Program-made: the position numbers and the translations under genes | Source of the DNA: Desulfopila aestuarii DSM 18488 | Lineage (GTDB): Bacteria > Desulfobacterota > Desulfobulbia > Desulfobulbales > Desulfocapsaceae | Direction of reading: 5' to 3' | Assembly: GCA_945863875.1 (NCBI GenBank) | Contig: CAMBBS010000017.1 | Span: forward strand, 1 to 64,000 | DNA: 64,000 nt | The notes under the pieces: model-generated | The model's input: the letters and a program-made list of their open reading frames with translations, nothing else | Databases searched by the model: none | Told to the model about the DNA's origin: nothing | Shown here: in pieces, positions 2,748 through 42,956 of the stretch | How positions within the stretch are numbered: the first letter of the stretch is position 1 | Layout: each line of letters starts with the position of its first letter

Positions 2748-4552
2748 TTTCCCTCTATTTTTGTGGGCAGAATCAGTTCAGCATGTGTGCCTGTGCCGGG
2801 AGTTGATTGGATAGAAAAATGACCGCCCAGGGATTCCGCCCTCTCTTGAATACTGAAGAGCCCAAATCCGCAATCAGTCGACCCATGGGGCCATAACGCG
2901 GCGGTATCGAAACCCACTCCGTCATCGATAACCTGCAAATGTAATCGATCGGCAAAATGTCGGATGTGAATCTCGATATTCTGTGCATTGGCATGTTTGA
3001 CAACATTCAGGGTCAATTCCCGAAGTGCCCTGAAGGCGAATACGTTTAATGTCTCGATATTGAGAGGATCAGAAATATCACTTGTTATGTGCACTTTAAT
3101 GTGATGCTGTTTTTCGGTTTCCTCGGCAAACCACTCAATGGCGGCTTCAAGGCCGAGTTCATAAAGAACCGGCGGGCTAACTTCGAATGTTAGGGTGCGG
3201 GTTTCCTGAATGATCTGTTCAATGCCGTCGTGCACTTCCTTGATTTTGTCGTCTAAATACCTGTTTTGATTTATTTGCGTAAGCAGACCAAGTTTTATCT
3301 GACAAAAGGCCAATGCCTGGCCTATCCGGTCATGCAGATCGCCTGCGAGGCGGCGACGTTCGCGTTCTTCGGTAAAGAGTAATTGAGCAGCCAGTTCTCG
3401 CAGCTTGTTTTCATGGGAGATCCGTAGACTCTCGGATTGTTGACTTTTTTCAATCTCGAGACTCAACCGGAGGTTGGCTTCAAGAAGGCCTGCATGATAA
3501 CAGTTCTGATCCCTCAACATGTGCTCGAATTCACGGTAGAGATCCTCGATTTCGTCGGATCTGCGGCTAAAGGATCTCCGGAGGAGTCGGTTATCCGAGC
3601 CTCGTATCTTAATGACCTGGCGAGTCAGATCGACAATCGGACTGAGTATGTTAGAGTTCATGAGGAGCCATAAGCAAATCAAGATCAAAATCCCCGCGAT
3701 GCAAATCAAAACCATTGCAAACCGGATGGTTACGACTCCTTTGGCGTACACTTCCCTTGGGATGGAAGCCTGGATCATCAATGCGGGATTGCCATATATG
3801 TCCGAAAATGTATTTTTAACCCGTAGAATTCGCTGATCAGTGTCATCGAAATGGCTGCAGTTTTTATAGCAAAGGGAGGTCTGATGCGCACACCCTGCAA
3901 TCCATTCAGAATCGTCTTGGGATGCGATAGGCAGATATGTATGTTGAACGTTGATTTGCTCTGCAAGGGTCTTGACATAAGCTTCATTTAAAAACCGACC
4001 CATCACCAAATAGCCACGTATCGGCCCCGTGTGGTTGCTGGTAATGACGGGCCGCGATGAAATAAGCATAGGTCCTTTACTGGTAATGATAATACCAGAT
4101 ATCGCGAGTTCAACATCGTGGTTTGATAAAAGAATATGTCCTTTTTCCAGACCATCCGATGGAAATTCCGGAAGGGACATTCTCTGCGCAGCATTCAAAT
4201 CCCATGCTTCCCCCCACACTTTTTTCCCGTCAGATGTACAGATGTAAATCAGATTAAACTGGTTATCAAAGAAAGTCTTGGCGCCCAAGTTGGATGTGAG
4301 AAATTCGGAATCGCGCTCTTCAATAAAGCGATACGTGTCGTCCCATGCGGCCCAATCGTGGGCCACAATATCCAGATGATGTGCCTCCCTGCGAAGTGCT
4401 GCAATACATCGATTGAGATCCCGCTCTGCGAGCGCCTGCTCAAGAGCAAGAAAATTAGGAAAAACAGCTAACCATTGGATGCCAAAACTCAATCCAGCAT
4501 AAAGGAATAGAACAATGAGTAGAATTCCGATTATTTTGGTTTTCAGTCTCAA
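2738..4552 (-). CDS. Membrane histidine kinase with CHASE4 sensor domain (NarX/DegS-type core)
   Basis: A 604-residue sensor kinase. Membrane segments at about 8-30 and 278-299 enclose a periplasmic domain; its DWAAWDDTYRF motif at 66-76 marks a CHASE4 ligand-sensing domain. A HAMP-like linker (about 300-350) and a coiled coil lead to a HisKA_3 dimerisation domain with the motif ERERRRLAGDLHDRIGQ, phospho-accepting H407, and a HATPase domain with DDGVGFD. This kinase class pairs with LuxR-type regulators, matching the overlapping downstream gene. The ligand is unknown. The gene starts at an ATG about 10 bases after a weak purine stretch. Confidence 0.9.
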   Translation of the reverse strand: MRLKTKIIGILLIVLFLYAGLSFGIQWLAVFPNFLALEQALAERDLNRCIAALRREAHHLDIVAHDWAAWDDTYRFIEERDSEFLTSNLGAKTFFDNQFNLIYICTSDGKKVWGEAWDLNAAQRMSLPEFPSDGLEKGHILLSNHDVELAISGIIITSKGPMLISSRPVITSNHTGPIRGYLVMGRFLNEAYVKTLAEQINVQHTYLPIASQDDSEWIAGCAHQTSLCYKNCSHFDDTDQRILRVKNTFSDIYGNPALMIQASIPREVYAKGVVTIRFAMVLICIAGILILICLWLLMNSNILSPIVDLTRQVIKIRGSDNRLLRRSFSRRSDEIEDLYREFEHMLRDQNCYHAGLLEANLRLSLEIEKSQQSESLRISHENKLRELAAQLLFTEERERRRLAGDLHDRIGQALAFCQIKLGLLTQINQNRYLDDKIKEVHDGIEQIIQETRTLTFEVSPPVLYELGLEAAIEWFAEETEKQHHIKVHITSDISDPLNIETLNVFAFRALRELTLNVVKHANAQNIEIHIRHFADRLHLQVIDDGVGFDTAALWPHGSTDCGFGLFSIQERAESLGGHFSIQSTPGTGTHAELILPTKIEGKCQ

Positions 4553-4719
4553 TTTTGTGTCACCTCTTCAGAGACACTAGCTTTCCGCAATAGACTGTGT
4601 GCGTATTAACTCTTCTGCTATTGGTGAAATCGACTGCAGAAGAGGGGAATGTTGATTGGAACAATACTGCAGTTTTTGGTTCAACAGGAACATTTTTTGA
4701 TGTTTTGGCAACGAATATC

Positions 4720-4945
4720 ATGACACTCTCTTATAGCCTCTGCCCGGAAGCGGCCAGAATTTGCGGTATATGCAGCTCTTGCAAGGCACCAAGGCCGACA
4801 TGTTCAACACCAATTGGCCGAGGCCGAACCAACTCCAGGGAATTGACAGCCACTTCCTGATAGGCAAAACTGCTCCCATTTTCGTGTTCCGGCAACAGGC
4901 CGGGTGTTGCCGGTTCGTCTGGAACAAAGCCCTCGCTTTACAGAA
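4720..4945 (-). pseudogene. Remnant of an IS1634-like transposase
   Basis: On the minus strand one frame from about 4860 to 4740 reads SLELVRPRPIGVEHVGLGAL followed by QELHIPQIL. This closely resembles the N-terminal region of IS1634-type transposases, where the pattern SxxLxRPRxIGxEHVxLxAL is conserved. The frame then hits a stop after about 45 residues and there is no catalytic DDE domain nearby. This is a decayed fragment, not a working gene. Confidence 0.55.
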
Positions 4946-4970
4946 GGACCGCCAACCGACACCTGCCTGA
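4884..4970 (+). pseudogene. Remnant of TnpB (IS200/IS605 accessory nuclease)
   Basis: On the plus strand the frame at 4888-4968 contains AGCCRFVWNKALALQKDR, which matches the N-terminal signature of TnpB proteins (GCxRFVWNxALxL). It ends at a stop a few residues later, with no RuvC or zinc-finger part downstream. It lies antisense to the upstream edge of the IS1634-like remnant, so two elements seem to have collided and decayed here. Confidence 0.5.
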
Positions 4971-5311
4971 ACTGTTGACCAGCGGCCAGGCAGGAATGGG
5001 GTCACGCCGGTGATGCGTTTTGCCCGCAGAGCGATTGCCTGAGCCGCTCACTAAGAAAGACGATTGATTCGATATCGAGGTGCTCGACCACCGTTTCATC
5101 AAACATCAGCGGAACCTTCGTTGGCAGACATGGGTAGAGCACCAGGGGCCAGAGCTCGCTCACGGAGTTCTTCCTTTCTGCCGGAAAAACTTTCAATCAG
5201 CGGATCTTCCACCGCCTTCCGCATAGCGACCGCCTTGGAGACGGTGTTTGGCAGCTCAACAAAGCCCTTCCATTTACTGAAGGTAACCGAAATCAGGCAG
5301 AAAGCAGGACT
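4971..5311. other. Non-coding, decayed interval beside transposase remnants
   Basis: No intact gene is seen. On the minus strand there are two broken frames in series: about 5300-5112, which reads through KWKGFVELPNTVSKAVAMR, and 5109-5002, which begins MFDETVVEHLDIESIVFLS. They look like one protein split by a frameshift, but I do not recognise it. Together with the neighbouring fragments this suggests a former insertion hotspot. Confidence 0.35.
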
Positions 5312-5932
5312 CTATTTTGCCTCGCCGCCGTGAGGCTTGTAGAAGATATGCTCGCCGACCTCGACCGTCTTGCTGAATTCCGTGGACCAACTGGGGGTTA
5401 CTTTTCGCTGGTGGAAATACAATGCGCCTCCGGTTCGGTCCGGTAGTTGCCGGTTGAGAGCCTTTCGCGCTATTTCCTTGGCAATCGCGTAAGATTCCTC
5501 CTCTTCTGCGTCATCCGAACGGCCATCGCACCACCACGAAAACTGGCAGGCACCCTGCTCGCGGCCTTGCCTGACAACTTCACAGATCGTATTTGGAAAG
5601 CCCTCATGGCCTAGACGGTTCATGACAACATTGGCTATTGCTTCCATACCGCTCGCCCCCTCGCCCCTGGTTTCCCAGTAGATGGTGCGTGAAAGACAGG
5701 TGATCGCATCGTCCAAGAGTTCTTCGCCGACCGGATCGACCGCCTGCGCTTCCGGCTTGGTGATGATTTCGGATCGAGAAGGCAGCGACTTTCCGCCATC
5801 GGCGGCTGCATCCTGCTCCAGTACCTCCGCCTTGCTCTCAGCAGTTTCCGCAATCCGTGCCTGGTCAGCGGCGATCGTTTGGCTCACGGAAATCATTACC
5901 GCAAGGCACGTCAAAATCCATATCTGGCGCAT
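5312..5932 (-). CDS. SleB/CwlJ-like cell wall hydrolase
   Basis: A 206-residue exported protein with a Hydrolase_2 (SleB/CwlJ) domain, a family that cleaves peptidoglycan as lytic transglycosylase or amidase. The start at 5932 is chosen because it has a strong AGGAGG site eight bases upstream and begins a clear signal peptide (MRQIWILTCLAVMISVS... cleaved near AA-D); a longer frame from 5974 lacks these. After a low-complexity linker the domain begins at about residue 80 with LSRTIYWETRGE, whose glutamate is typical of the catalytic site, followed by ANVVMNRLGHEGFPNTICEV and CQFSWWCDGR. In Gram-negative bacteria such proteins remodel the wall; spore germination is not implied. Confidence 0.85.
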   Translation of the reverse strand: MRQIWILTCLAVMISVSQTIAADQARIAETAESKAEVLEQDAAADGGKSLPSRSEIITKPEAQAVDPVGEELLDDAITCLSRTIYWETRGEGASGMEAIANVVMNRLGHEGFPNTICEVVRQGREQGACQFSWWCDGRSDDAEEEESYAIAKEIARKALNRQLPDRTGGALYFHQRKVTPSWSTEFSKTVEVGEHIFYKPHGGEAK

Positions 5933-6256
5933 GGTCAACCCTCCTTGATGAATCAAATAAACATGGCCCGGCACCCGAGCTTATCCGTCAGACGGTCTTC
6001 GTGCAGAACGTGGAGCGGGATGTCTAATAACACGCTCCTCTGGCCTCTGCTGTTATCTGAGGCGCATGTCGCCATTTTCCATGAAGAGTTGCTGCATGAA
6101 AAACGCCTTTGGGAGGATATGCGGTTCGTGACCGCAACCGCTACGTCACACCGGCCCCATTCTTTGGCCCGCACATTGGTCGACAATTCTGATGCCTGCC
6201 ATGACACCGGTGATAAAGGAAGCCCCCGGTCTTTATCACCGGGGACTCATCAGAAG
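5933..6256. other. Interval between citrate synthase and wall hydrolase genes
   Basis: No gene is seen. The citrate synthase terminator hairpin (6207-6242) occupies the right side. The ribosome binding site of the wall hydrolase lies at the left edge, and its promoter probably lies between them. Confidence 0.5.
6207..6242 (-). terminator. Hairpin after citrate synthase gene
   Basis: Twelve-base stem, 6207-6218 pairing exactly with 6231-6242, with a 12-base loop. It lies 15 bases past the gltA stop. No T run follows, so it may be a weak intrinsic terminator or an mRNA-protecting hairpin. Confidence 0.5.
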
Positions 6257-7537
6257 CTAACGCGCGTGTATCGGAATATAATCATAACACAGGTTACCCG
6301 TATAGATTTGGCGTGGCCGAGCGATTTTCCAATGGGGGTCATCGATGCTTTCCTTCCACTGGGCGATCCATCCAGGGAGTCGGCCGAGGGCGAACATCAC
6401 CGTGAACATATTCGTGGGGATGCCAATGGCTCGGAGAACAATTCCACTGTAAAAGTCTACATTGGGATAGAGATTGTGATCGATAAAATACTGGTCTCTC
6501 AAGGCAATTTCCTCAAGCTCCCTGGCGATATTCAGGAGAGGATCATCGATTTGCATTGATTCCAGCAGATTGTCACACATCTTTTTCATAATCTTGGCCC
6601 GTGGGTCATAGGTTTTATACACCCTGTGGCCGAATCCCATGAGCCGGAAGGGATCATTTCTGTCTTTGGCACGCTGGACGGTTTTTTGGCAATTCCCGCC
6701 GTCCTTTTGGATAGCCGTGAGCATTTCAATGACCGCCTGGTTGGCTCCTCCGTGCAACGGCCCCCAAAGTGCAGCAATGCCCGAAGAGATAGCGGCATAA
6801 AGGTTGACCCGGGCACTACCGACCATGCGGACGGCGGAGGTCGAACAGTTCTGCTCGTGGTCGGCATGGAGGATCCAGAACCCACGCAGGGCATTGACTG
6901 TTTCCCGTTTGATCTCGTAGGGTTTCACCGGGGAGTCGAACATCATGTTCAGAAAATTCTCACAATAGGTCAGATCCGGGCGTGGAAAAACAATTTCATG
7001 ACCCCTGGAAATTTTATAAGACATGGCCGCCATGGTCCGCACTTTGGAGAGGAGCCTGGTCATGGTGATGTTGATCTCTTCTTCATGGCTATCAAGTGCT
7101 GGATAAAAGCTTCTCAGGGCATTGACCATGGACGACAGGATGCCCATGGGATGGGCTCCCCTGGGATAATTCTGAAAAAAGGTTTTTAAATCGGTGTGGA
7201 CCAGGCTGTTGTCATTGAGCATCACCGAAAATCGGGTCAGCTCATTCCTGTTGGGTAGCCTGCCGTTGATGAGCAGGTAGACGGTCTCCTTGAAGGAAGA
7301 GTGTTCGGCCAGCTGTTCCACGGGGATGCCCCGGTAACGAAGGATGCCTTTTTCTCCATCCATGAAGGTGATGGCGCTCAGGCAACTGCCGGTGTTGGCA
7401 TAACCGGGGTCGAGGGTGATAAATCCGGTCTCGGCCCTCAGGCTGGAAATATCTATGGCTTTTTCCCCTTCGCTCCCGGTAATCACGGGGAGCAGTATTT
7501 CTTTTCCGTTATAAGTGAGAGTTGCGTATTCGTCCAA
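6257..7537 (-). CDS. gltA: Citrate synthase (type II, Si-type)
   Basis: Condenses acetyl-CoA with oxaloacetate to form citrate, the entry to the citric acid cycle. The 426-residue length is that of the hexameric type II enzyme. The catalytic residues are present: H262 in GPLHGGANQAV, H304 in MGFGHRVYK and D361 in PNVDFYSG. An N-terminal beta-sheet domain (1-60) typical of NADH-regulated enzymes is also present. The start is a TTG, selected because AAAGGAG lies seven bases upstream and the sequence begins DEYATLTYNGKEI as in the family. Many sulfate reducers use a different Re-citrate synthase, so this gene suggests a conventional pathway or biosynthetic use. It is monocistronic. Confidence 0.95.
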   Translation of the reverse strand: MDEYATLTYNGKEILLPVITGSEGEKAIDISSLRAETGFITLDPGYANTGSCLSAITFMDGEKGILRYRGIPVEQLAEHSSFKETVYLLINGRLPNRNELTRFSVMLNDNSLVHTDLKTFFQNYPRGAHPMGILSSMVNALRSFYPALDSHEEEINITMTRLLSKVRTMAAMSYKISRGHEIVFPRPDLTYCENFLNMMFDSPVKPYEIKRETVNALRGFWILHADHEQNCSTSAVRMVGSARVNLYAAISSGIAALWGPLHGGANQAVIEMLTAIQKDGGNCQKTVQRAKDRNDPFRLMGFGHRVYKTYDPRAKIMKKMCDNLLESMQIDDPLLNIARELEEIALRDQYFIDHNLYPNVDFYSGIVLRAIGIPTNMFTVMFALGRLPGWIAQWKESIDDPHWKIARPRQIYTGNLCYDYIPIHAR

Positions 7538-7773
7538 AATATCTCCTTTCTACTCTAATGCTCTGATGACGCCTTAACCAGAGTCGTTGTATCTGAATTT
7601 GAATGTCCTGCCGGAAAAAAGGCAACACTGTATTTTGTAACCTACCAAAACCTCTTTGTAAACCTGGCAATTGTATCAAACAGATAAAAAGGTCAGTATA
7701 TTTCGGTTGGATGTTTCCAGGTCGATTTTGCAAGGACCGTTTGGACGTGAAAAATGTTTTGTCGGGCTATCTC

Positions 7774-9903
7774 TCACCGCGGACCAGTATCCACCCCGGC
7801 TTCCTCAAACGAGGCCATTTCTCGCATCATGCGGCAGGAGAGGTCGACGAGATTCATGGTTATCGCGGCCCCGGTTCCTTCGCCAAGCCGCATGTCCAGG
7901 TCGATAACCGGTTTAAGGCCCATGATGGACAGGGCGGTCTGCTGTCCTGTTTCCACTGACCTGTGCCCCGCGACAAGATACCCCTTGATTTCCGGACAGA
8001 GCAGATAGGCCAGGAGGCCGGCGGCGGTGGAAATAATGCCGTCCAGGACCACGCAGCAGCCTGTCGAGGCGGCGGCCAGGACAGCGCCGCAAATGCCGCC
8101 GAGTTCGTAGCCGCCGACCATGGACAGGAGTTCCAGGGCATCGGTTCTGCTCGGCTGGTGCAGCGTGAGGGCCTTTTCGAGTACTTCCCGCTTGCGCTCA
8201 AGGCCTCGATCGTCGACACCGGTGCCGCGGCCGGCGATTTTTGCCGCAGGCAGCCCGGAAGCACCGCAGATGATCGCCGTGGCACTGCTGCTGTTGCCGA
8301 TGCCCATTTCACCCATGCCGACGAGATCGCAGGGCTGCCGGGCATGTTTTTCGAGAAATATCTCTGCCCCGGTTTCGACGGCTTTAAGTGCATCAGCCGG
8401 GCTCATTGCTCTTTGCACGGCAAAATTCCGGGTTCCTCGGGCCATTTTGCGCTTTATCAGCAGCGGGTGATCGCTGAAGTCGCCACCCACACCCATATCG
8501 ACGACAGTCAGATCGATGTCGTAATGGCGGCAAAATGCGTTGATCGCCGCGCCGCCATCAAGAAAATTCTCCACCATCTGCACGGTCACCTTGGCCGGAA
8601 AAGCCGAAACCCCTTCCTCGACCACGCCGTGGTCACCGGCAAAGACAAACAGCCGTTTGCAGGAAATTGCCGGATTGAGGTTTTTCTGGATGGCACTTAT
8701 CTGCACGGCGAGTTTTTCTATGCTTCCCAGGGCGCCGAGAGGCTTGGTCTTCAGGTCGACTTTTTTCTGGGCCTGACCTGTGAAATTCTCGGAAATCGGT
8801 TTGATCCCGGCGATGAGTGCGGAGATGTATGGCGACAGGCGGCTCTGGCTTTTGCCGTTGTTGTTGCCCTGGTTGTTTCGCTTTGCCCCTCCATGCATGT
8901 CCGGTGCGGGAGAGGCCACCGGCAGCTTTGCCGCTGTGCCGAAATCGACAATATATTTCAGAGCATTTCCGGCGAGGATATGCGGCAGCACGGCCTCGAC
9001 CTCGCTGGGCCCGATGATTTTTTCAACGAGCAGCGCCAGATTTTCCTGCTGCCGTGCACAAAAGGGGACGGCCTGGACCATATGTTCTCTTCTCGGGCCG
9101 TAGGCCCCGCGGATCTCCAGTTCCTTGTAATGAATCAGGTTGAGCAGATTGGTGTCTATCTCCTGGTTTTTTTTCAGGCCGCTGAAAAAAACCAGCTGCC
9201 CGCCCTTGCGAAGTTTGGTGAGACAGAGACTGAAGGCGATATGGCTGTCACAACAGTTTATGGCCATATCAAAATCAGCGGCGACGGTATCCTTGCACAG
9301 GGTAATATTGTTTTTTGCGCAAAAGGGGCGCAGGCGGGCTATCTTCTCCTCACTCCGTTCAATAACCGTGACGGGGCAGTTGCGCTCCCGGAAAACGAGG
9401 GCGGCGATCATGCCGATGACCCCGCCGCCGTAGAGAATGACCCGTCGGCTGGCAGCGATATTGAGGTGCGAAAGACCATTGAGCACACAGGCCACCGGTT
9501 CGGCAAAGGTCAGCAGGGGCGACTCCAGGTCCTCGTTTACGGCAACCAGACTGTCTTTCGGGACGACTACCGTGTGCGCAAAGCCGCCATCCGCATGAAA
9601 GCCGATAATGCGCATCTCTTCACAGAGGTTTTCCCTACCGCCAAGACAATAGCGGCACAGGCCGCAGGTCTGCCCCGGCCAGACGGTATAGAGCTGGCCG
9701 TTTTCCTGGTCATAACCGGCGATTTCATGGCCGAGGACCCTCGGCAGAGCAAGGTCGCGATGGCCTCCGCGCCACATCTTGGCATCGGTGCGGCAGACCG
9801 CGCAGTAGCTGACCACCAGGGTGAGGTAGCCATCTGGCAGCGGGGTTGGGCTGTCTTGTTCACTGTATTTCAGTACTTCACACTGGGTCATGGCTAATTT
9901 CAT
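7774..9903 (-). CDS. Fusion of zinc alcohol dehydrogenase (MDR) and CobT phosphoribosyltransferase
   Basis: One unbroken 709-residue frame with two full-length enzymes. Residues 1-325 are a medium-chain dehydrogenase: catalytic zinc ligands C37 and GHE at 58-60, structural zinc cysteines C80, C83, C86 and C94, and a nucleotide-binding GGGVIG at 159-164. After a polar linker rich in N, G and K (about 330-355) residues 356-709 are CobT, which transfers phosphoribose from nicotinate mononucleotide to a base to make the alpha-ribotide of the cobamide lower ligand; FAGDHGVVEEGVSAFP (421-436), GIGNSSSAT and the catalytic E674 in RLGEGTGA are present. The start overlaps the upstream 75-residue gene by 4 bases. 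The dehydrogenase substrate is unknown; the fusion implies it acts on the CobT base or product. A separate CobT start at internal M336 is possible but no stop separates the parts. Confidence 0.88.
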   Translation of the reverse strand: MKLAMTQCEVLKYSEQDSPTPLPDGYLTLVVSYCAVCRTDAKMWRGGHRDLALPRVLGHEIAGYDQENGQLYTVWPGQTCGLCRYCLGGRENLCEEMRIIGFHADGGFAHTVVVPKDSLVAVNEDLESPLLTFAEPVACVLNGLSHLNIAASRRVILYGGGVIGMIAALVFRERNCPVTVIERSEEKIARLRPFCAKNNITLCKDTVAADFDMAINCCDSHIAFSLCLTKLRKGGQLVFFSGLKKNQEIDTNLLNLIHYKELEIRGAYGPRREHMVQAVPFCARQQENLALLVEKIIGPSEVEAVLPHILAGNALKYIVDFGTAAKLPVASPAPDMHGGAKRNNQGNNNGKSQSRLSPYISALIAGIKPISENFTGQAQKKVDLKTKPLGALGSIEKLAVQISAIQKNLNPAISCKRLFVFAGDHGVVEEGVSAFPAKVTVQMVENFLDGGAAINAFCRHYDIDLTVVDMGVGGDFSDHPLLIKRKMARGTRNFAVQRAMSPADALKAVETGAEIFLEKHARQPCDLVGMGEMGIGNSSSATAIICGASGLPAAKIAGRGTGVDDRGLERKREVLEKALTLHQPSRTDALELLSMVGGYELGGICGAVLAAASTGCCVVLDGIISTAAGLLAYLLCPEIKGYLVAGHRSVETGQQTALSIMGLKPVIDLDMRLGEGTGAAITMNLVDLSCRMMREMASFEEAGVDTGPR

Positions 9904-10127
9904 ATCGCTTTATTCCGCAGAGGCTCGTAGGATTCTTCAATGATGGTGAGTTTTCTTAGTTCCGCGCCGACCACACCGGTTTCCTGCAGTTTTTTGCACA
10001 GTTGTCCCGCCTTGCCGGCCTGGTCCAGCGGAAAGACGCTGGCCTTGCTCAGTTCGCAGGGTTCAAAATTGTCTTCCCGGCAGCGGAAATAATTCTTTCC
10101 GGCCTTGATGATGAGGAGCTCGGTCAT
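9900..10127 (-). CDS. Small conserved-looking protein of the cobalamin-riboswitch operon
   Basis: A 75-residue soluble protein that I do not recognise. It begins MTELLIIKAGKNYFRCREDNF, is mixed alpha/beta in character, has two cysteines (C16 and C24) plus a third at about 44, and ends with a basic PLRNKAI tail. Its ATG overlaps the TrpD-like stop by 4 bases and its stop overlaps the dehydrogenase-CobT start by 4 bases, so all three are translationally coupled. That arrangement argues it is real and works with its neighbours, perhaps as a subunit or chaperone of one of the transferases; this is inference only. Confidence 0.75.
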   Translation of the reverse strand: MTELLIIKAGKNYFRCREDNFEPCELSKASVFPLDQAGKAGQLCKKLQETGVVGAELRKLTIIEESYEPLRNKAI

Positions 10128-11236
10128 AGCAGCGCTCCGGCTTTGTGCAGTTCAGCCAGTCTGGCCAGGCCGCCGGTGGGATCGCTGTTCTGGACTTCAA
10201 CCCAGCGCTTCAACGTGGCCAGAGCCTGTCCGGACCGGAGGATGTCCCTGGCCTTGTCGACCCCTTCGGCGATTGTCGCAACCGCATTCTGCACATAAAA
10301 GATCAGGCCGCTGTTTAAAATAACCGCATCCAGCCGTGCCGCATCGCCCGTGCCGCTCAGCAGCCGGTGCATTTTAACGGCGGCGGTGTTTTTACTCTGA
10401 TCTGCGGCCAGCAGTTGCGGCGGATGGGTTTTTAGGCCGCAGTCCTCGGGGTGGAAGGCGAGGTCGGTGAGTATGCCGTTGTGCAGGTGGACACCGGTCG
10501 TCATGCCGCAGACGGAGCCCTCGTCCATGCCCCGCTCGCTGCCGGAGATACCCCCGTAGACGACGAGGGCATCGGTATAGCCGATTTCCTGCATGACTTC
10601 AGCCACCGGACGAAGCAGAGACGGCGAATAGACACCCCGCAGGGCAACCTTCGGCATGGCGGGATGGGCGAGGGAGGCGGCAATATTCAGCGGGGAGCCA
10701 AAGCAGATCTGCGACAGAATACGCCCCAGCGCCATCGGGTGGACTTCCGAACTCATACCGTTGAACAAGCCGATGCCCGCCTGTCTGATACTTTTTTCAA
10801 CCGTTTCGACGCGGCATTCTACATCAACCCCGAGACATTCAACCATATCGACCGTGCCGCAGCTTGAGCTGATGGCCCGGGCGCCATGGCGGGCAATGGT
10901 CACCCCTCCGGCCGCTGCGACCAGCGAAGCTGCGGTGCTGATATTAAAGGTCTTGAAGCTATCCATGCCGGTGCCGCAGTTGTCGACGATGGTCAGGTCG
11001 GTCAGGTCAACTTTTCGGGTGTCGAGCTCGTACACCGCCCGCCAGCCGCCGGCGACTTCGGCCGCGGTTTCGCCTTTGGTGGTAAGGGCGGCGAGAAAGG
11101 CCCCCTGCTGCATGTCGGAAACCTCGTTGCCGAGCACCAGGCAGAAGGCCTCATGGGATTCTTCCTGGGAGAGATTTTCTTTGCCGATAAGCCGGGTAAT
11201 TATTTGTCCAAGTTTTTTGTTCTTTTCCTGATCCAT
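10124..11236 (-). CDS. TrpD-like phosphoribosyltransferase (anthranilate PRTase family)
   Basis: A glycosyltransferase family 3 protein related to TrpD, which transfers phosphoribose from PRPP to anthranilate. The PRPP-binding loop reads GTGMDSFKTFNIST where TrpD has GTGGDxxxTFNIST, and the second motif ARHGARAISSSCGTVDMVE replaces the usual KHGNRSxSSxxGSADxLE. These changes and the lack of any trp gene nearby suggest a different acceptor. The start at 11236 is chosen for GGAG seven bases upstream; a frame five codons longer begins with TTG and has no such site. It is first in a three-gene operon with CobT and lies behind a cobalamin riboswitch, so a role in supplying or modifying a cobamide lower ligand is inferred. 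Confidence 0.82.
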   Translation of the reverse strand: MDQEKNKKLGQIITRLIGKENLSQEESHEAFCLVLGNEVSDMQQGAFLAALTTKGETAAEVAGGWRAVYELDTRKVDLTDLTIVDNCGTGMDSFKTFNISTAASLVAAAGGVTIARHGARAISSSCGTVDMVECLGVDVECRVETVEKSIRQAGIGLFNGMSSEVHPMALGRILSQICFGSPLNIAASLAHPAMPKVALRGVYSPSLLRPVAEVMQEIGYTDALVVYGGISGSERGMDEGSVCGMTTGVHLHNGILTDLAFHPEDCGLKTHPPQLLAADQSKNTAAVKMHRLLSGTGDAARLDAVILNSGLIFYVQNAVATIAEGVDKARDILRSGQALATLKRWVEVQNSDPTGGLARLAELHKAGALL

Positions 11237-11424
11237 TTTAATACTCCGCAATATTTCCGGTGAACGGTTACGATTATTTTGTTGTTCTGCCGGTCAAGCG
11301 ATATGTAAGGATACGGAAAAGAACGTTACAACGGGGGAATCGTCTCCGTATCCGCAATAATGCACGGTCTGCAGCAACCAGACAATACAATTCCAGATAC
11401 AGAGAACTCCAGTGGTTAGCTCTG
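11237..11424 (-). promoter_or_regulatory. Leader between cobalamin riboswitch and first gene
   Basis: About 190 bases of untranslated leader. An exact nine-base inverted repeat, 11309-11317 with 11345-11353, could form a hairpin with a 27-base loop. No T run follows, so it does not look like a standard attenuator. The GGAG ribosome site is at the very end, so control may act on translation as well as transcription. Confidence 0.4.
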
Positions 11425-11655
11425 GGAGTGGACCGACAAGAAGGTCCACCGGGTGCAGGCAGGCTTTCTGACTCACGAATTATCCTGCCGAACAGCCGCC
11501 TTCCCGGTATGACCCAGTGACGAATCTTTAAGAAACAAGATTTGGGGCACGGATATTTGGTGTGCCCAGCTGCAGCAGCCTTCGTATACAGCAAGGACTG
11601 GCTTGTGACGGACTCGCACCGTCTTTCCTTTTATCAACATCGAGGTGCACCTGCA
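11425..11655 (-). promoter_or_regulatory. Cobalamin (adenosylcobalamin) riboswitch
   Basis: The minus strand shows the hallmarks of the B12 riboswitch in order: AAAAGGAAAGACGGTGCGAG (about 11629-11610) then TCCGTC; a TTGCTGTATACGAAGGC stretch; CACTGGGTC followed by ACCGGGAAGGCGGC (about 11520-11492); and GTGAGTCAGAAAGCCTGCCT near 11475-11458. The GGTGCGAGTCC and GAGTCAGAA(A)NCCTGCC parts match the conserved core. A following hairpin (11428-11434 with 11443-11449) may be the expression platform. It lies just after a good promoter and upstream of the TrpD-like operon, so high cobamide should repress that operon. Boundaries are approximate. Confidence 0.82.
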
Positions 11656-11662
11656 CATGAGC

Positions 11663-11691
11663 TTTATACCTTGCTCGATTAAAGAAAGCAA
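11663..11691 (-). promoter_or_regulatory. Sigma70-type promoter of the cobalamin-riboswitch operon
   Basis: Minus strand TTGCTT (11691-11686), 17 bases, TATAAA (11668-11663). Transcription would start about 7-8 bases on, immediately before the riboswitch core, which supports both assignments. Confidence 0.6.
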
Positions 11692-38914: not shown

Positions 38915-40006
38915 TTACTCGCTGAGAAGAACAAGAGCCGAAGGGTTCAAGATAAGCTCTATCGGCCGGCCGATTTCTGGCGGTGGCGGGTCGATCGGAA
39001 GATCGAAGGCCAGGGGAGTATCTCCAGACCGTAAGCCGATTCTGTAGCTGCTCCCCTGGAATTGCCGGCTGGTGATTGTGCCGGACAGGCGCAAGGCATC
39101 ATCTTTTGCTGTTGAAGAATGAGCGAGGGTGGCGCCTTCCGGGCGGATCAGCAGGATATTGGCGGTTTCTGGCACCATATTCTCTGCACGCACCGGCAGG
39201 TTGCCCAGGGAGGAACGGAAAATACCCTGACGCTCAACAGAACCTTTCAGCAGATTGCGAAACCCTAAAAATCCGGCAACGGTGCTGTTTACCGGCTTCC
39301 GGTAGAGATGCTCCGGGGTGTCGAATTGCTGCAGGGTGCCGTGGTAGAGGATAGCTACCTTATCGGCGATGCTGAATGCCTCGGCCTGGTCATGGGTGAC
39401 GAACACGGCGGTGACGCCGAGAGATTTAAGGATGGTCCGGATTTCGCCGGTCAGCCGGTCCCTGAGTGCCCGGTCAAGCGAGCCGAGGGGTTCGTCGAGG
39501 AGCAGCAACTGCGGTTCCGGCGCAAGGCTTCTGGCCAGTGCCACCCGCTGCCTCTCCCCCCCCGACAGCTCATCGATTTTGCGGTGCTCCAGGCCTAAAA
39601 GGCCAACCAATTCCAGTACCGTCCGCACCCGCCGGACCAGCTCGTCAGGTGGACAATGCTGCATCTCCAGGCCGAAGGCGACATTTTGCTGGACGGATTT
39701 ATGGGGAAAGAGAGCGTATTCCTGAAACATCATGCCGAAATTTCTCTTATGAGAAGGGACCGCCCGGATATCCCTGCCGCAAAAGAGGATCGAGCCGGCA
39801 TCCTCTTTTTCCAGTCCGGCCAGAAGACGGAGCAGGGTCGTCTTGCCCGAGCCGGAGGGGCCGAGGAGGCAGAGAATCTCCCCCTGTTTCAGTGCAAAGC
39901 TGATGTCCTGGAGGAGCGGTTGCCCTTCATAACGGTTTGACAGCCTGTCCACCTCGAGAATATTGCTCTTGTCCTGCATTCCTTGCACTTTTCGTCCTGT
40001 TTTCAT
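38915..40006 (-). CDS. thiQ: Thiamine ABC importer ATP-binding protein
   Basis: ATPase of the thiamine/TPP importer. The 363-residue protein has Walker A LLGPSGSGKTTLLRL, signature DELSGGERQRVALARSLAPEPQL, Walker B LLLLDEPLGSLD and an H-loop VFVTHDQAEA, then a C-terminal TOBE_2-type domain (about 250-355). It is longer than E. coli ThiQ because of this extension, so it resembles FbpC/PotA, but the operon and riboswitch make thiamine the probable cargo. Its ATG overlaps the thiP stop by four bases (ATGA). Confidence 0.82.
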   Translation of the reverse strand: MKTGRKVQGMQDKSNILEVDRLSNRYEGQPLLQDISFALKQGEILCLLGPSGSGKTTLLRLLAGLEKEDAGSILFCGRDIRAVPSHKRNFGMMFQEYALFPHKSVQQNVAFGLEMQHCPPDELVRRVRTVLELVGLLGLEHRKIDELSGGERQRVALARSLAPEPQLLLLDEPLGSLDRALRDRLTGEIRTILKSLGVTAVFVTHDQAEAFSIADKVAILYHGTLQQFDTPEHLYRKPVNSTVAGFLGFRNLLKGSVERQGIFRSSLGNLPVRAENMVPETANILLIRPEGATLAHSSTAKDDALRLSGTITSRQFQGSSYRIGLRSGDTPLAFDLPIDPPPPEIGRPIELILNPSALVLLSE

Positions 40007-41694
40007 AGAGATGCTTGGGGGGGTTTTTTCGAGGCGTCCAGTCTGCCGATGAGCCAGAAACCGGAACAGGTGACGAGCATGAGGATACTGCTCATGGCCA
40101 TGGCCTGCCCATAATTTATGTCGCCGGGTTGGCCGAGAAAACGAAAAATTGCCACCGGCATGGTCGGGGTATGGGGCCGGGTGACAAAGGCCGAGGCACC
40201 GAATTCACCCATGCTGATGGAAAAGGCGAAAACCGCGCCGACGAGAATTGCCCTGCCGATAATGGGAATATCCACCCGGCGCCATACCTGATAGGGCGAG
40301 GCGCCGAGCAGAGTCGCGGCTTCTCGCAGGGTCTGCGGGATCTGCTTAAGACTTGGCAGGATGCAGCGGACGACAAAGGGAAAGGCCACCAGGGCATGGG
40401 CGATGGGGACCAGGGCCAGAGAGTCGCGCAGGTTCAGAGGCGGTCGGTTCAGGGTAATGATATAGCCAAAGCCGAGGGTTACCGCCGAGGTGGCCAGGGG
40501 CAGCATGATAATCGCGTCCCAGAAAGAGGACACCGGGGCCCCTCGTTCCCGGGCCGAAGCAAGAAAAGTTGAGGCAAGCAGGCCGAGGATAACGGCGATG
40601 GTCATGGCCGCCAGGGCAAAACCGACACTGTTGGCCACCGCGGCAATGGGTTCGACGAAAAAGACCGACCTGGCCTGGGTGGTAAAAAGTGCCGAGTAAT
40701 AGGCAAGAGTCAGCCCGTCTTGCCCGGTAAACGAGCGGACGACCAGGGCGAGCAGCGGTGTGACCAGCAGGATAACCATGAACAGGAGGTTTACCCCGAT
40801 AAGAATCTTCTCCGCCGGACTCTCAACTTTTATTGCGGTGCCGCTTGCCGAGTCGGTATAGAAGGCGATGCGCGATCTTTTACCAAGGCGGGCATGCAGC
40901 CACATGAGCAGAAAATTTACGACGATCTGGATCAGGGACAGTGCGGCGGCCATGGGCAGATTAAAGAGTTGCACCGATTGGCGGTAAATTTCCACCTCGA
41001 GGGTTGCGTATCCCGGGCCGCCGAGGATGAGCACCACGCCGAAGCTGGTGAAGCAGAAGATAAAGACGAGCAGCGCCGCGGAGCCGATGGCTGGCATCAA
41101 CAGGGGCAGGGTGATCCGGCGAAAGGTCTGCCACGGCGAGGCGCCAAGCATCTTCGCTGCGGCGCGCAGATCGGGATCGAGTCCACCCCAGAATCCCCCG
41201 ACGATGCGCAGCACCAGGGTGTAATTGTAAAAAACATGGGCGAGGAGGAAGAAGGCCACCGTCTGATCAATGTTGATCGGAGGCTGGGACAGCCGCAGAC
41301 CATGCATCAGCCAGGTGTTGAGCAAACCGTTGGTCCCGAGCAAGGCCCGAAAGGCGGCCGCGGTGACGACGGTGGGCAGCACGAAGGGCACTGTCATCAA
41401 GGCCTGAAGCAGGTTTTTGCCAAAAAAACGATACCGGGCAAAAACATAGGCCCCGGGCAGGGCCAGCACCAGGGTGATGACAGTGGACAAGGCCGCCTGC
41501 CAGCAGGTAAACCAGAGAATGCGGCCGTAGACGGGCGAGTTGACCAGCTTGCCGAGTCTGGCCGGATCCCAGTTGCCGTCCGGCAGAAAGCTGAGCAGAA
41601 CTATTTTTCCCAGTGGGTAAAAATAGAAGAGGAGCAGGAACAGCAAGGGGAGGGAGAACACTGCCCAGCGGAACAGAGGTCGAGGCTGTTTCAC
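40003..41694 (-). CDS. thiP: Thiamine ABC importer permease
   Basis: A double permease of about 563 residues: two copies of the binding-protein-dependent transport domain, each with an EAA loop (for example EAATLLGASPYQVWRRVDIPII in the second half and RAAAKMLGASPWQTFRRITLPLL in the first), with about 12 helices in total. This size and layout match ThiP. I place the start at a GTG at 41694 because AAAGGGAG lies eight bases upstream; the frame is open to 41718 by a TTG without a site. It follows thiB by 44 bases and overlaps thiQ by four. Confidence 0.85.
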   Translation of the reverse strand: MKQPRPLFRWAVFSLPLLFLLLFYFYPLGKIVLLSFLPDGNWDPARLGKLVNSPVYGRILWFTCWQAALSTVITLVLALPGAYVFARYRFFGKNLLQALMTVPFVLPTVVTAAAFRALLGTNGLLNTWLMHGLRLSQPPINIDQTVAFFLLAHVFYNYTLVLRIVGGFWGGLDPDLRAAAKMLGASPWQTFRRITLPLLMPAIGSAALLVFIFCFTSFGVVLILGGPGYATLEVEIYRQSVQLFNLPMAAALSLIQIVVNFLLMWLHARLGKRSRIAFYTDSASGTAIKVESPAEKILIGVNLLFMVILLVTPLLALVVRSFTGQDGLTLAYYSALFTTQARSVFFVEPIAAVANSVGFALAAMTIAVILGLLASTFLASARERGAPVSSFWDAIIMLPLATSAVTLGFGYIITLNRPPLNLRDSLALVPIAHALVAFPFVVRCILPSLKQIPQTLREAATLLGASPYQVWRRVDIPIIGRAILVGAVFAFSISMGEFGASAFVTRPHTPTMPVAIFRFLGQPGDINYGQAMAMSSILMLVTCSGFWLIGRLDASKKPPQASL

Positions 41695-41738
41695 GTCATG
41701 TTCTCCCTTTTGTATCAAGCAATCTGTACGCTTGTCAA

Positions 41739-42782
41739 TCAGCGCAGGACGACATTCGTCCAGGCTTCGATCCAGCTGTCGCGGTTGGCTTCAATAGCCG
41801 AAGGGCTGAGCTCTACCGGTTTGTCGGCGACGACGGCGTGTTTGACAAAAACCTCCGGCAGTTGAGCGTTTTTGTTTGCCGGGAAGACAAACATCTGCAG
41901 CGGGACATCCTCCTGGAAACTTTTGCTCAACATGAAATCGACAAGTTTTTTGGCCAGCTCAAGCTCTTTGGTGCCCCTCAGGATGCCGACAAATTCGATC
42001 TGCCGAAAAGCGGTGTTGTCGGCAACCAGAGCGGCGGTGGGGGCTTCGGACAGCGGTTTTTCCGCATAATGGACGACGGCCGGCGGACTGGACGCATAGC
42101 TGACGACGATCGGCCGGTTGCCCTTGGAGGCAGCAGTGAAATGGCCATAATAGGCATCCTCCCAGCCATTGGCGACGACCACGTCGTTGTCGCGCATTTT
42201 TTTCCAGAAGTCGAGATAACCAGCCTCGCCGAATCGGCCGATGGTGGCAAGAAGAAAGGCCATGCCGGGGGAAGAGGTTGCCGGGTTTTCAACCACGGTC
42301 AAGCCCCGGTAGGCAGGTTTGATCAGATCGGCGAGATCGGCCGGGGGAGGCAGCTGGTGGGTTCTGAACCACTGCCTGTCGTAGTTGAGGCAGACATCGC
42401 CGTAATCGACCGGCAGCAGGCGGTTCTGCTGGTCGAGTTGCAGGGCGGCGGGGATCTCGGCGAGCAGCGGTGACGCATGGGGCAGGAAAATTTCCGCCTT
42501 GAGCGCCCGGGAAAAAAAGGTGTTGTCGACCCCGAAAAAGACATCGGCCAGAGGATTGTCTTTGGAGAGAATAGCCTGTATCAGGGCGGACCCGGCGTCG
42601 CCGGATTTTAAAAATCGGACTTTCACGCCGTTATCTTTTTCAAAACGGGCAATGACCTCCTTGCCGATGTTGAAACTGTCATGGGTCATGAGGGTAATGG
42701 TTTTTGCCGTCTCCGCCGCGCTGGTGAGAGCCGTCGCGAGTGATAAGATCAACATCGATGCACCGAGCAATATCTTGTTCAT
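41739..42782 (-). CDS. thiB: Thiamine ABC importer binding protein
   Basis: Periplasmic binding protein for thiamine and its phosphates. The 347-residue protein has a signal peptide (MNKILLGASMLILSLATALTSAAE) and the ThiB opening ITLMTHDSFNIGKEV, followed by FEKDNGVKVRFLKSGDAG, PLADVFFGVDNTF and LLPVDYGDVCLNYDRQWF. The start at 42782 follows GGAGGTACTG; a frame six codons longer has no site. The gene lies directly after a TPP riboswitch with its own terminator, and its order thiB-thiP-thiQ is that of known thiamine importers. Confidence 0.88.
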   Translation of the reverse strand: MNKILLGASMLILSLATALTSAAETAKTITLMTHDSFNIGKEVIARFEKDNGVKVRFLKSGDAGSALIQAILSKDNPLADVFFGVDNTFFSRALKAEIFLPHASPLLAEIPAALQLDQQNRLLPVDYGDVCLNYDRQWFRTHQLPPPADLADLIKPAYRGLTVVENPATSSPGMAFLLATIGRFGEAGYLDFWKKMRDNDVVVANGWEDAYYGHFTAASKGNRPIVVSYASSPPAVVHYAEKPLSEAPTAALVADNTAFRQIEFVGILRGTKELELAKKLVDFMLSKSFQEDVPLQMFVFPANKNAQLPEVFVKHAVVADKPVELSPSAIEANRDSWIEAWTNVVLR

Positions 42783-42810
42783 CAGTACCTCCAAAATCAT
42801 AAAAACTGCA

Positions 42811-42843
42811 AAAAAAAAGCCGCCTCCGGTCAGGAGACGGCTA
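42811..42843 (-). terminator. Attenuator terminator of the TPP riboswitch
   Basis: Stem 42819-42828 with 42834-42843 (one mispair) and a run of nine T on the minus strand (A at 42811-42819). It lies between the TPP aptamer and thiB, 28 bases before the thiB start, so it would stop transcription when TPP is bound. Confidence 0.85.
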
Positions 42844-42851
42844 GATATGTC

Positions 42852-42947
42852 GCACTGTTCCCTCCGCCGGCATTATCCGGATCAGGTCAAGCGGTCGAGT
42901 TATTGCTGAAAACCCCTCTCAGCCCGGTTGTACCGAGCTCCCGCGTC
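42852..42947 (-). promoter_or_regulatory. TPP riboswitch (THI element)
   Basis: On the minus strand: CCGGGCTGAGAGGGG, then GACCGCTTGACCTGATC with CGGATAATGCCGGCGGAGGGA, the conserved THI element. The first part is at 42926-42912 and the second at about 42897-42857. The terminator at 42811-42843 is the expression platform. It controls thiB-thiP-thiQ. Confidence 0.95.
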
Positions 42948-42956
42948 ACTATCCTT

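Follow-up and report, generated by a model that had tools for sequence, protein, structure and literature searches.

A cobalamin-riboswitch operon combining a TrpD-like protein with a dehydrogenase-CobT fusion, and its possible role in supplying a cobamide lower ligand

Introduction

Why should a relative of the tryptophan-pathway enzyme TrpD and a zinc-dependent dehydrogenase be encoded together behind a cobalamin riboswitch, in an operon that ends in a second copy of CobT? The question is raised by a locus in Desulfopila aestuarii DSM 18488, in a 64,000-nt stretch of contig CAMBBS010000017.1 (positions 1–64,000), which we refer to as the window; the host genome (G000) measures 4.7 Mb. CobT requires a base and a ribosyl donor, and the lower ligand determines which organisms can use a given cobamide. 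A survey of 11,000 bacterial species found the form of the cobamide predictable for just 58% of the species that produce one (PMC6461909). Here we describe the operon, its relatives in other genomes and their strong link to cobamides. Judged by its genes, the operon is best read as building, selecting or activating a lower ligand.

Results

The operon lies entirely on the minus strand and consists of a cobalamin riboswitch followed by genes for a TrpD-like protein, a 75-residue protein and a medium-chain dehydrogenase/reductase (MDR) fused to CobT. The riboswitch aptamer occupies 11441..11669 of the operon leader (RF00174, 52.3 bits against a gathering score of 31.5, E 3.8e-10, cmscan), and the remainder of the leader, from aptamer to start codon, runs over 11237..11440. 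The gene for the TrpD-like phosphoribosyltransferase (10124..11236, 370 aa) lies within an open reading frame (ORF) at 10124-11251 and matches TrpD and glycosyltransferase-3 models. It is followed by the ORF of a conserved 75-aa protein whose family has no Pfam model (9900..10127), and by the ORF of a 709-aa protein (7774..9903) in which Pfam and NCBIfam models identify a zinc-dependent MDR, a linker and a second CobT (CobT2). Both gene junctions read ATGA and are thus 4-base overlaps, giving a three-gene operon. For the TrpD-like gene, the probable start codon is the ATG at 11236, which has GGAG ahead of it and yields 370 aa; the alternative, a TTG at 11251, would yield 375 aa.

The first-pass annotation of this DNA had described a promoter, a riboswitch and three overlapping genes as one unit. 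The riboswitch, the genes and the 4-base overlaps stand. The promoter was not confirmed: a consensus scan, itself a weak test, returned two promoter-like sites in 801 bases, with 1.0 expected, and neither was a minus-strand sigma-70-like site ahead of the aptamer. The predicted RNA fold of 11480-11215 is more stable than that of shuffled sequences (z -3.7), and its last helix spans the first codons. Translational control is possible under this model, in which leader bases pair with the first codons.

Relatives were collected by scanning 84,980 species genomes with an MDR alignment, and the best 80 of 177 relatives were analysed. Three kinds of locus were distinguished: type A, with a TrpD-like gene, the small protein and an MDR or MDR-CobT; type B, with an MDR followed by a TrpD-like gene; and type C, with an MDR and a different TrpD-like gene. 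A type A TrpD-like gene, whole or in part, was found on the same strand in 71 of the 80 MDR loci, and any TrpD-like partner (types A and C) in 74; the small protein was present in 60, and CobT was fused to the MDR in 59. Several of the missing module genes fall at contig ends, and in one locus (L082) other sequence separates the genes. Because the same genes co-occur repeatedly in distant genomes, the set is beyond chance.

Among 57 related genomes, the small protein occurred in 16, all of one family. The 15 non-host neighbourhoods have the same genes in the same order, with frameshifts in G028 and with the CobT part absent in G020. In the one-contig genome G028 (L023, 6804-10370), the broken frames lie in the TrpD-like and MDR genes and reflect either decay or sequencing error. 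A search of the phylum with a profile of types A and B was positive in 13 of 395 genomes (12 of 246 genera) and added eight type B loci (L172-L178 and L182, of which L178 is cut by a contig end). Divergent type B TrpD-like copies in G040, G041 and G048 each stand beside an MDR 35% identical to that of the window. In type C (L155, L156 and L157), the MDR is 42–45% and the TrpD-like protein about 32% identical to type A.

By record title, the MDR loci belong mainly to Desulfobulbaceae, Desulfocapsaceae and Desulfobacteraceae-type organisms. Outlying loci are titled Spirochaetes (L118 and L140), Salinivirgaceae (L141), Bacteroidetes (L158) and Candidatus Sabulitectum (L144, Fermentibacterota). 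Some metagenome-assembled genomes (MAGs) titled Deltaproteobacteria or Proteobacteria are placed as Myxococcota or Pseudomonadota, and these labels were not relied on. Recurrent neighbours outside the core genes were few among ORFs of at least 100 aa within 3.5 kb, and the largest groups (8 loci) were mostly Desulfobacula-like. Near the module of Desulforhopalus singaporensis lies a pyrrolysine insertion element of mttB (L092, 11207-11306), and a gene beside it clusters with module-adjacent genes of L148 and L149.

The link to cobamides was examined through riboswitches and synteny. After eight of the 80 loci had been left out for a missing or cut TrpD, Rfam searches at the gathering threshold detected a same-strand upstream cobalamin riboswitch in 57 of 69 scanned type A loci (by batch 3/5, 11/15, 11/12, 10/13, 11/12 and 11/12) and, in the type B set, an upstream one in 9 of 11. 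Two further type A stretches lie outside the 69, one with a riboswitch (L179) and one without (L180, from the same genome as L109). The host genome contains five cobalamin riboswitch matches in 4.7 Mb, so that such elements are rare.

Type B loci L176 and L182 both read, in order, riboswitch, MDR, TrpD-like, CobT, CobS, CobD and CbiB; L175 reads MDR, TrpD-like, CobT and CobS, and L172 MDR, TrpD-like and CobT. In L176 the CobT, CobS, CobD and CbiB proteins pass NCBIfam cut-offs; the CobS of L175 reaches 109 bits against a cut-off of 110, and the identities of other type B neighbours rest on similarity or reading. Genes for CbiE and CbiJ lie upstream of the type B pair in L173. The L141 module, which has no riboswitch match, sits within the series cbiL-cbiF-cbiG-cbiH-cbiJ-btuR-[module]-cobT-cobQ-cobD-cysG, whose btuR and cobD fall below curated cut-offs and whose other members exceed one; in L156 a CbiA/CobQ-like gene and cobU precede the type C pair. 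The connection with cobamides that had been drawn from the window is therefore borne out by riboswitches, by synteny with cobT/cobS/cobD/cbiB and cbi genes, and by the CobT fusion, and we regard it as strong. The outcome named beforehand as fatal to it, in which the genes would be scattered among relatives with no cobamide link, did not occur in the relatives examined.

The TrpD-like protein scored 247.7 bits against TIGR01245 (cut-off 199.05) and also passed both glycosyltransferase-3 Pfam models. Its AlphaFold2 model (predicted local distance difference test, pLDDT, 90.2) has the TrpD fold, and the closest PDB structure is 1vqu (Foldseek E 4.2e-25, template modelling scores 0.78/0.88), a Nostoc protein titled 'Anthranilate phosphoribosyltransferase 2'. 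When aligned with canonical TrpD, the TrpD-like rows retain the motifs for phosphoribosyl pyrophosphate (PRPP) and Mg, namely GTG.D, N.S and DE. The acceptor Asn of KHGN is replaced by Ala in 0.84 of 38 type A rows, 0.91 of 11 type B rows and 3/3 type C rows, and the invariant Arg172 of canonical TrpD by Leu in types A and B (1.00) and by Ile in type C. In the window protein, Ala124 stands opposite canonical N117 and Leu179 opposite canonical R172, and profile-profile alignment reproduces both the Asn/Ala and the Arg/Leu pairing. From the motif and the 55-residue spacing we infer that the altered positions are N138 and R193 of Mycobacterium tuberculosis TrpD, residues which we take to hold anthranilate; PDB titles include the N138A and R193L variants of that enzyme.

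The protein thus has the fold, the model score and the PRPP/Mg motifs of TrpD and lacks its acceptor-site Asn and Arg. Nor is it the tryptophan-pathway TrpD of its genome. The host carries a separate trpD at C43:26670-27665 that scores 388.7 bits (247.8 for the window copy) and has neighbours reading as trpC and trpF. The window protein is 35% identical to this second TrpD; it differs from TrpD in the replaced acceptor residues, in a two-residue insertion, in belonging to a clade of its own, and in its cobalamin riboswitch and its place outside a trp operon. Because the genome has a separate TrpD and the acceptor-site residues have been lost, normal anthranilate activity is unlikely on the evidence of the sequence.

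A tree of 58 chosen TrpD rows has a branch, with an approximate likelihood ratio (SH-aLRT) support of 99, that separates the 38 type A rows from the rest; types A and B group together at 96, and the six canonical TrpDs stand apart at 100. Type C, whose branch is long and whose position may be wrong, is possibly an independent recruitment. The type B module of L175 (G124, 3427-10697) lies a few genes from a canonical trpD and from genes reading as trpC, trpF and trpB, a neighbourhood that may hint at the origin of the TrpD-like gene.

The same neighbourhood would also suit a role outside cobamide synthesis, in which the operon would encode isozymes of aromatic metabolism, repressed by cobalamin, that replace a B12-dependent enzyme. 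Riboswitches are generally known to be used in this way for metE and nrd genes. Of these, metE and nrdD are named in PMC8620254. Against such a role, to which we give hardly any credence, stand the fusion of the module to CobT or its position directly beside CobT, and its occurrence inside cobamide operons.

The N-terminal half of the 709-aa protein matches ADH_N at residues 26-123 (PF08240) and ADH_zinc_N at 163-283 (PF00107), both above cut-off. The C-terminal half matches PF02277 at 367-704 (409.5 bits) and TIGR03160 (421.3 bits, cut-off 319.3). The MDR thus occupies residues ~1-320 and, after a linker, CobT2 residues ~361-709. Residues C37, E60, E135, C80, C83, C86, C94 and G159/G161/G164 of the MDR are conserved in types A, B and C, as is a GHRDL stretch; H59 is invariant in 15 type A rows and is Glu in some type B rows. 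These include the catalytic zinc ligands, the four structural Cys residues and the GxGxxG NAD motif, a combination that places the protein among the zinc-dependent MDRs.

The MDR of the window resembles threonine dehydrogenase, and synthesis of the aminopropanol linker was considered as its role. We saw no need for such a role, because a CobD domain is already present in the ordinary cob operon of the host. In that operon, on C6 (L070, 4321-6909), an 862-aa protein fuses threonine-phosphate decarboxylase CobD to cobyric acid synthase CobQ, as confirmed by NCBIfam. The fusion gene adjoins the second CobT gene of the host (CobT1, C6:49718-50725, 435 bits), whose other neighbours read as cbiB, cobS, cobU and cobC.

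By sequence tests the C-terminal domain of the window fusion is a CobT. Its domain model scores above the curated cut-off, the conserved CobT core is kept, and the columns of LGEGTGA, including the catalytic Glu, are common to CobT2 and the other CobTs compared. It differs from CobT1 in that the fused proteins form a branch alongside the ordinary CobT of the host: a weakly supported branch (80) separates the 30 fused CobTs from the others, among which L141_CobT1 is a very long row. In the MDR tree, the distribution of fused and unfused forms requires several changes. CobT has therefore probably been lost from some copies of the module, and frameshifts or contig ends may account for some of the apparent losses.

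The base site of CobT2 bears on a further explanation, a phenolyl-cobamide system like ArsAB, in which the fused CobT, perhaps together with host CobT1, would activate a phenolic base that the dehydrogenase had produced or trimmed. All 30 CobT2 rows have Phe/Tyr-Met-Met at the base-site positions, where ArsA has Tyr-Met-Met and Salmonella enterica CobT Ser-Gln-Leu, and ArsA is the top PDB score of host CobT1. Of the 11 other CobTs compared, 7 carry these letters too, and 4 did not match the pattern. Moreover, the window has no tandem CobT pair, and a second full CobT directly follows the module in L141 alone of the 80 loci. On this evidence we think a phenolic system very unlikely.

The 75-residue protein had no Pfam match better than E 0.17, no NCBIfam match and no PADLOC model, and its family of 27 members had no Pfam match better than E 0.026. 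AlphaFold2 predicts a beta-beta-beta-beta-alpha-beta fold (pLDDT 93.3) with strands at 2-9, 12-16, 21-24 and 31-33, a helix at 34-49 and a strand at 55-62. The model found no match at E ≤ 0.001 in the PDB or among viral models. Its best VIA-align result was a phage neck protein (Z 4.9), and no role was drawn from these comparisons.

Module genomes were searched for the established sources of a lower ligand. BluB exceeded a 150-bit cut-off in none of 59 module genomes searched (a number in which at least two genomes are counted twice, G142/G453 and G159/G467); the BluB-like matches below it reached 116 bits in G462 and 109 bits in G196. It was likewise not found over cut-off in the host genome, and 1 of the 57 related genomes, G024, has it. 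The sole ThiC-family gene found in the host lies at C52:8501-9754 (580.5 bits), with a cobalamin riboswitch at C52:9857-10056 (L074). It passes the NCBIfam ThiC models and stays below the BzaB cut-off; NCBIfam gave no BzaF match among the ThiC-family genes here. The split of this family used here is our own, with ThiC at about 596–670 bits and the BzaF range at 547–590 bits. The 57 relatives contain 30 lower-scoring members (558–590 bits), at least 22 of them with a cobalamin riboswitch at most 300 bases upstream. Given that cobalamin riboswitches precede such genes and that the search of the host turned up no further member of the ThiC family, the C52 gene is probably BzaF, and its automatic annotation as ThiC may be wrong.

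Within the host's family (36 genomes), BzaF-range genes above 400 bits were found in 13 of 16 module genomes (in G028 as two pieces) and in 9 of 20 others (p 0.041). The counts become 15/16 and 9/20 (p 0.0035) when short unassigned fragments in G006 and G013 are added, and 15/16 and 10/20 (p 0.009) when a fragment in G021 is added as well; these p values ignore kinship. Module records not titled as MAG or uncultured have a BzaF-range gene in 10 of 11 cases, the exception being Desulfogranum marinum (G447, type A). As a general rule, co-occurrence of the module with BzaF was rejected: overall, 19 of the 45 module genomes reached through loci have a BzaF-range gene, and the rule is false for 9 of the 11 type B genomes. 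Those nine carry a ThiC-range gene only (632–670 bits); G041 carries a BzaF-range gene, and in G040 a second member of the ThiC family is present in fragments. The module therefore does not simply stand in for BzaF, and it does not depend on BzaF either.

These counts suggest a remodelling role to be weighed, in which a benzimidazole already present (5-hydroxybenzimidazole made by BzaF, for instance) or its ribotide would be altered by the module, and the changed base would then be attached by CobT2. The association of type A with a BzaF-like gene, in the host's family and in the records not titled as MAG, speaks for such a role. It does not fit D. marinum or the nine type B genomes, and we know of no benzimidazole reaction of the zinc-MDR type. 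We consider it distinctly improbable.

The principal rival to supply of a base concerns the other substrate of CobT. Here the TrpD-like protein would make a beta-ribotide from PRPP, for example nicotinate mononucleotide (NaMN) from the nicotinate released by CobT, or an analogue, and the base would come from BzaF, adenine or salvage. Two inversions, from PRPP (alpha) to the beta-ribotide and on to the alpha-ribotide, would then feed CobT. Such a scheme accounts for a PRPP enzyme beside CobT and for the intact PRPP site, and it is compatible with type A modules beside a BzaF-like gene. It leaves without a role the dehydrogenase, the most constant partner, and NaMN is expected, as a matter of general knowledge, in any cell that makes NAD. 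Matches to nicotinate phosphoribosyltransferase (NAPRTase) above 200 bits, a line of our own, were found in just 2 of the 57 related genomes, G011 with the module and G032 without, a scarcity in its favour. Weak matches of 24–45 bits, above the Pfam cut-off of 20.8, were found in 17 more genomes, the host included (42 bits). When every match is counted, NAPRTase is found in 7 of the 16 genomes with the module and in 12 of the 41 without. Replacement of NAPRTase by the module was accordingly rejected as a discriminating test, strong matches being rare with or without the module and weak ones occurring in both groups, so the result gives donor supply no favour. We regard donor supply as unlikely.

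Two other riboswitches of the host were noted. Elsewhere in the window, a thiamine pyrophosphate (TPP) riboswitch at 42842-42954 on the minus strand precedes minus-strand ORFs (41739-42800, 40003-41718 and 38915-40006) that read as the binding protein, permease and ATPase of a putative thiamine importer; this riboswitch and the apparent importer suit a host whose genome yielded no canonical ThiC. At G000:C29:53733-53920 (L073), a cobalamin riboswitch has as its next same-strand ORF one that reads as a Gfo/Idh-like oxidoreductase, near the contig end.

Discussion

In the view we favour, the operon forms a self-contained unit serving the base branch of nucleotide-loop assembly in cobamides and, given its riboswitch, would be expressed only when cobamide is scarce. 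The TrpD-like protein may attach phosphoribose to, or release it from, an aromatic or heteroaromatic precursor other than anthranilate, and the MDR may oxidise or reduce an alcohol or carbonyl on that precursor. The product would be handed within the fusion to CobT, giving an alpha-ribotide to be attached by CobS; the small protein could, at a guess, be an assembly or carrier partner. In this way the module would supply and channel a lower ligand other than the products of BluB or Bza. That it supplies CobT with the base is suggested by analogy, because BluB/CobT2, a characterised fusion of an oxidoreductase with CobT, makes and activates its base; the module would share this layout and be built of unrelated enzymes. 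We judge the chances of this to be evenly balanced.

Several observations weigh against base supply by the module. Some concern the genes themselves: the fusion of CobT to the MDR was not found in 21 of the 80 loci, CobT lies directly beside the pair in just 4 of 11 type B loci, and no riboswitch match was obtained in 12 of 69 type A loci or in any of the 3 type C loci. Others concern alternative sources of a base. Type A often coexists with a ThiC-like gene that we read as BzaF, in the host among others, and it is therefore no simple replacement for BzaF; the positive association of module and BzaF within the host's family counts against replacement as well. Adenine or salvaged bases could serve the type B genomes, one of which, G196, is the source of the 109-bit BluB-like match. 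There are also chemical objections. CobT takes a free base, so that a PRPP enzyme upstream of it is not obviously needed, and we know of no lower-ligand chemistry for a TrpD-type enzyme or a zinc MDR.

Taken further, the preferred reading would make the module a third way of obtaining a lower ligand, separate from both BluB and the ThiC-like Bza enzymes: the TrpD-like transferase and the zinc dehydrogenase would produce a base, possibly of a chemical class unseen in cobamides, and pass it to a CobT that is either fused or adjacent. This route would have spread through the anaerobic relatives of the sulfate reducers and apparently been transferred to Spirochaetota, Bacteroidota and Fermentibacterota. 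We advance this larger proposal tentatively, at somewhat less than an even chance. The module nonetheless offers a concrete gene set in which to seek a new ligand or a new mode of activation, composed of enzymes of no known lower-ligand pathway and present in named strains such as Desulfospira joergensenii, Desulforhopalus singaporensis and Desulfogranum marinum. It also means that annotations of TrpD and CobT conceal a second, different pair in module genomes.

Full-text search of the open-licence literature returned no description of the gene set in the passages retrieved. In those from PMC8620254, trpD and DH are listed in cobalamin-gene-rich variable regions of a Chlorobium and are not linked together. 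The retrieved text of PMC10553843 deals with the cobalamin genes of sulfate reducers and does not mention this set, the trpD entry of PMC12452182 concerns T-box trp operons, and in the available portion of PMC8123684 trpD and anthranilate do not occur.

The first-pass annotation had also held that the genes correspond to none of the bza, bluB and ArsAB pathways, and in the Pfam, NCBIfam and genome searches run here that assessment held. With the bza pathway (BzaA-F) the module has in common anaerobic hosts, a cobalamin riboswitch and service to CobT. It differs in having no ThiC-like or methyltransferase gene, the ThiC-like gene of the host lying elsewhere in the genome with a riboswitch of its own, and none of the three module proteins matches BzaA/B/F or BzaC/D/E in Pfam or NCBIfam. 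ArsAB, which serves phenolic ligands in Sporomusa and Veillonella, shares a CobT homologue and base-site letters with the module. ArsAB is a tandem pair of CobT homologues, whereas the single CobT of the window is joined to an MDR and the other CobT of the host is on C6.

The nearest parallel is BluB/CobT2 of Propionibacterium freudenreichii, which makes and activates dimethylbenzimidazole (DMBI) in one protein and shows no reaction with adenine (PMC4657239). As described there, it resembles the window fusion in placing a second CobT behind an oxidoreductase, with a spacer between the domains. BluB, on the other hand, needs oxygen and acts on flavin, whereas the partners in the window are a zinc MDR and a TrpD-like protein, in anaerobes, and the N-terminal half of the fusion is ADH_N/ADH_zinc_N in place of a BluB domain. 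Because the defining tests for BluB, Bza and ArsAB all fail, the module resembles BluB/CobT2 at most in layout.

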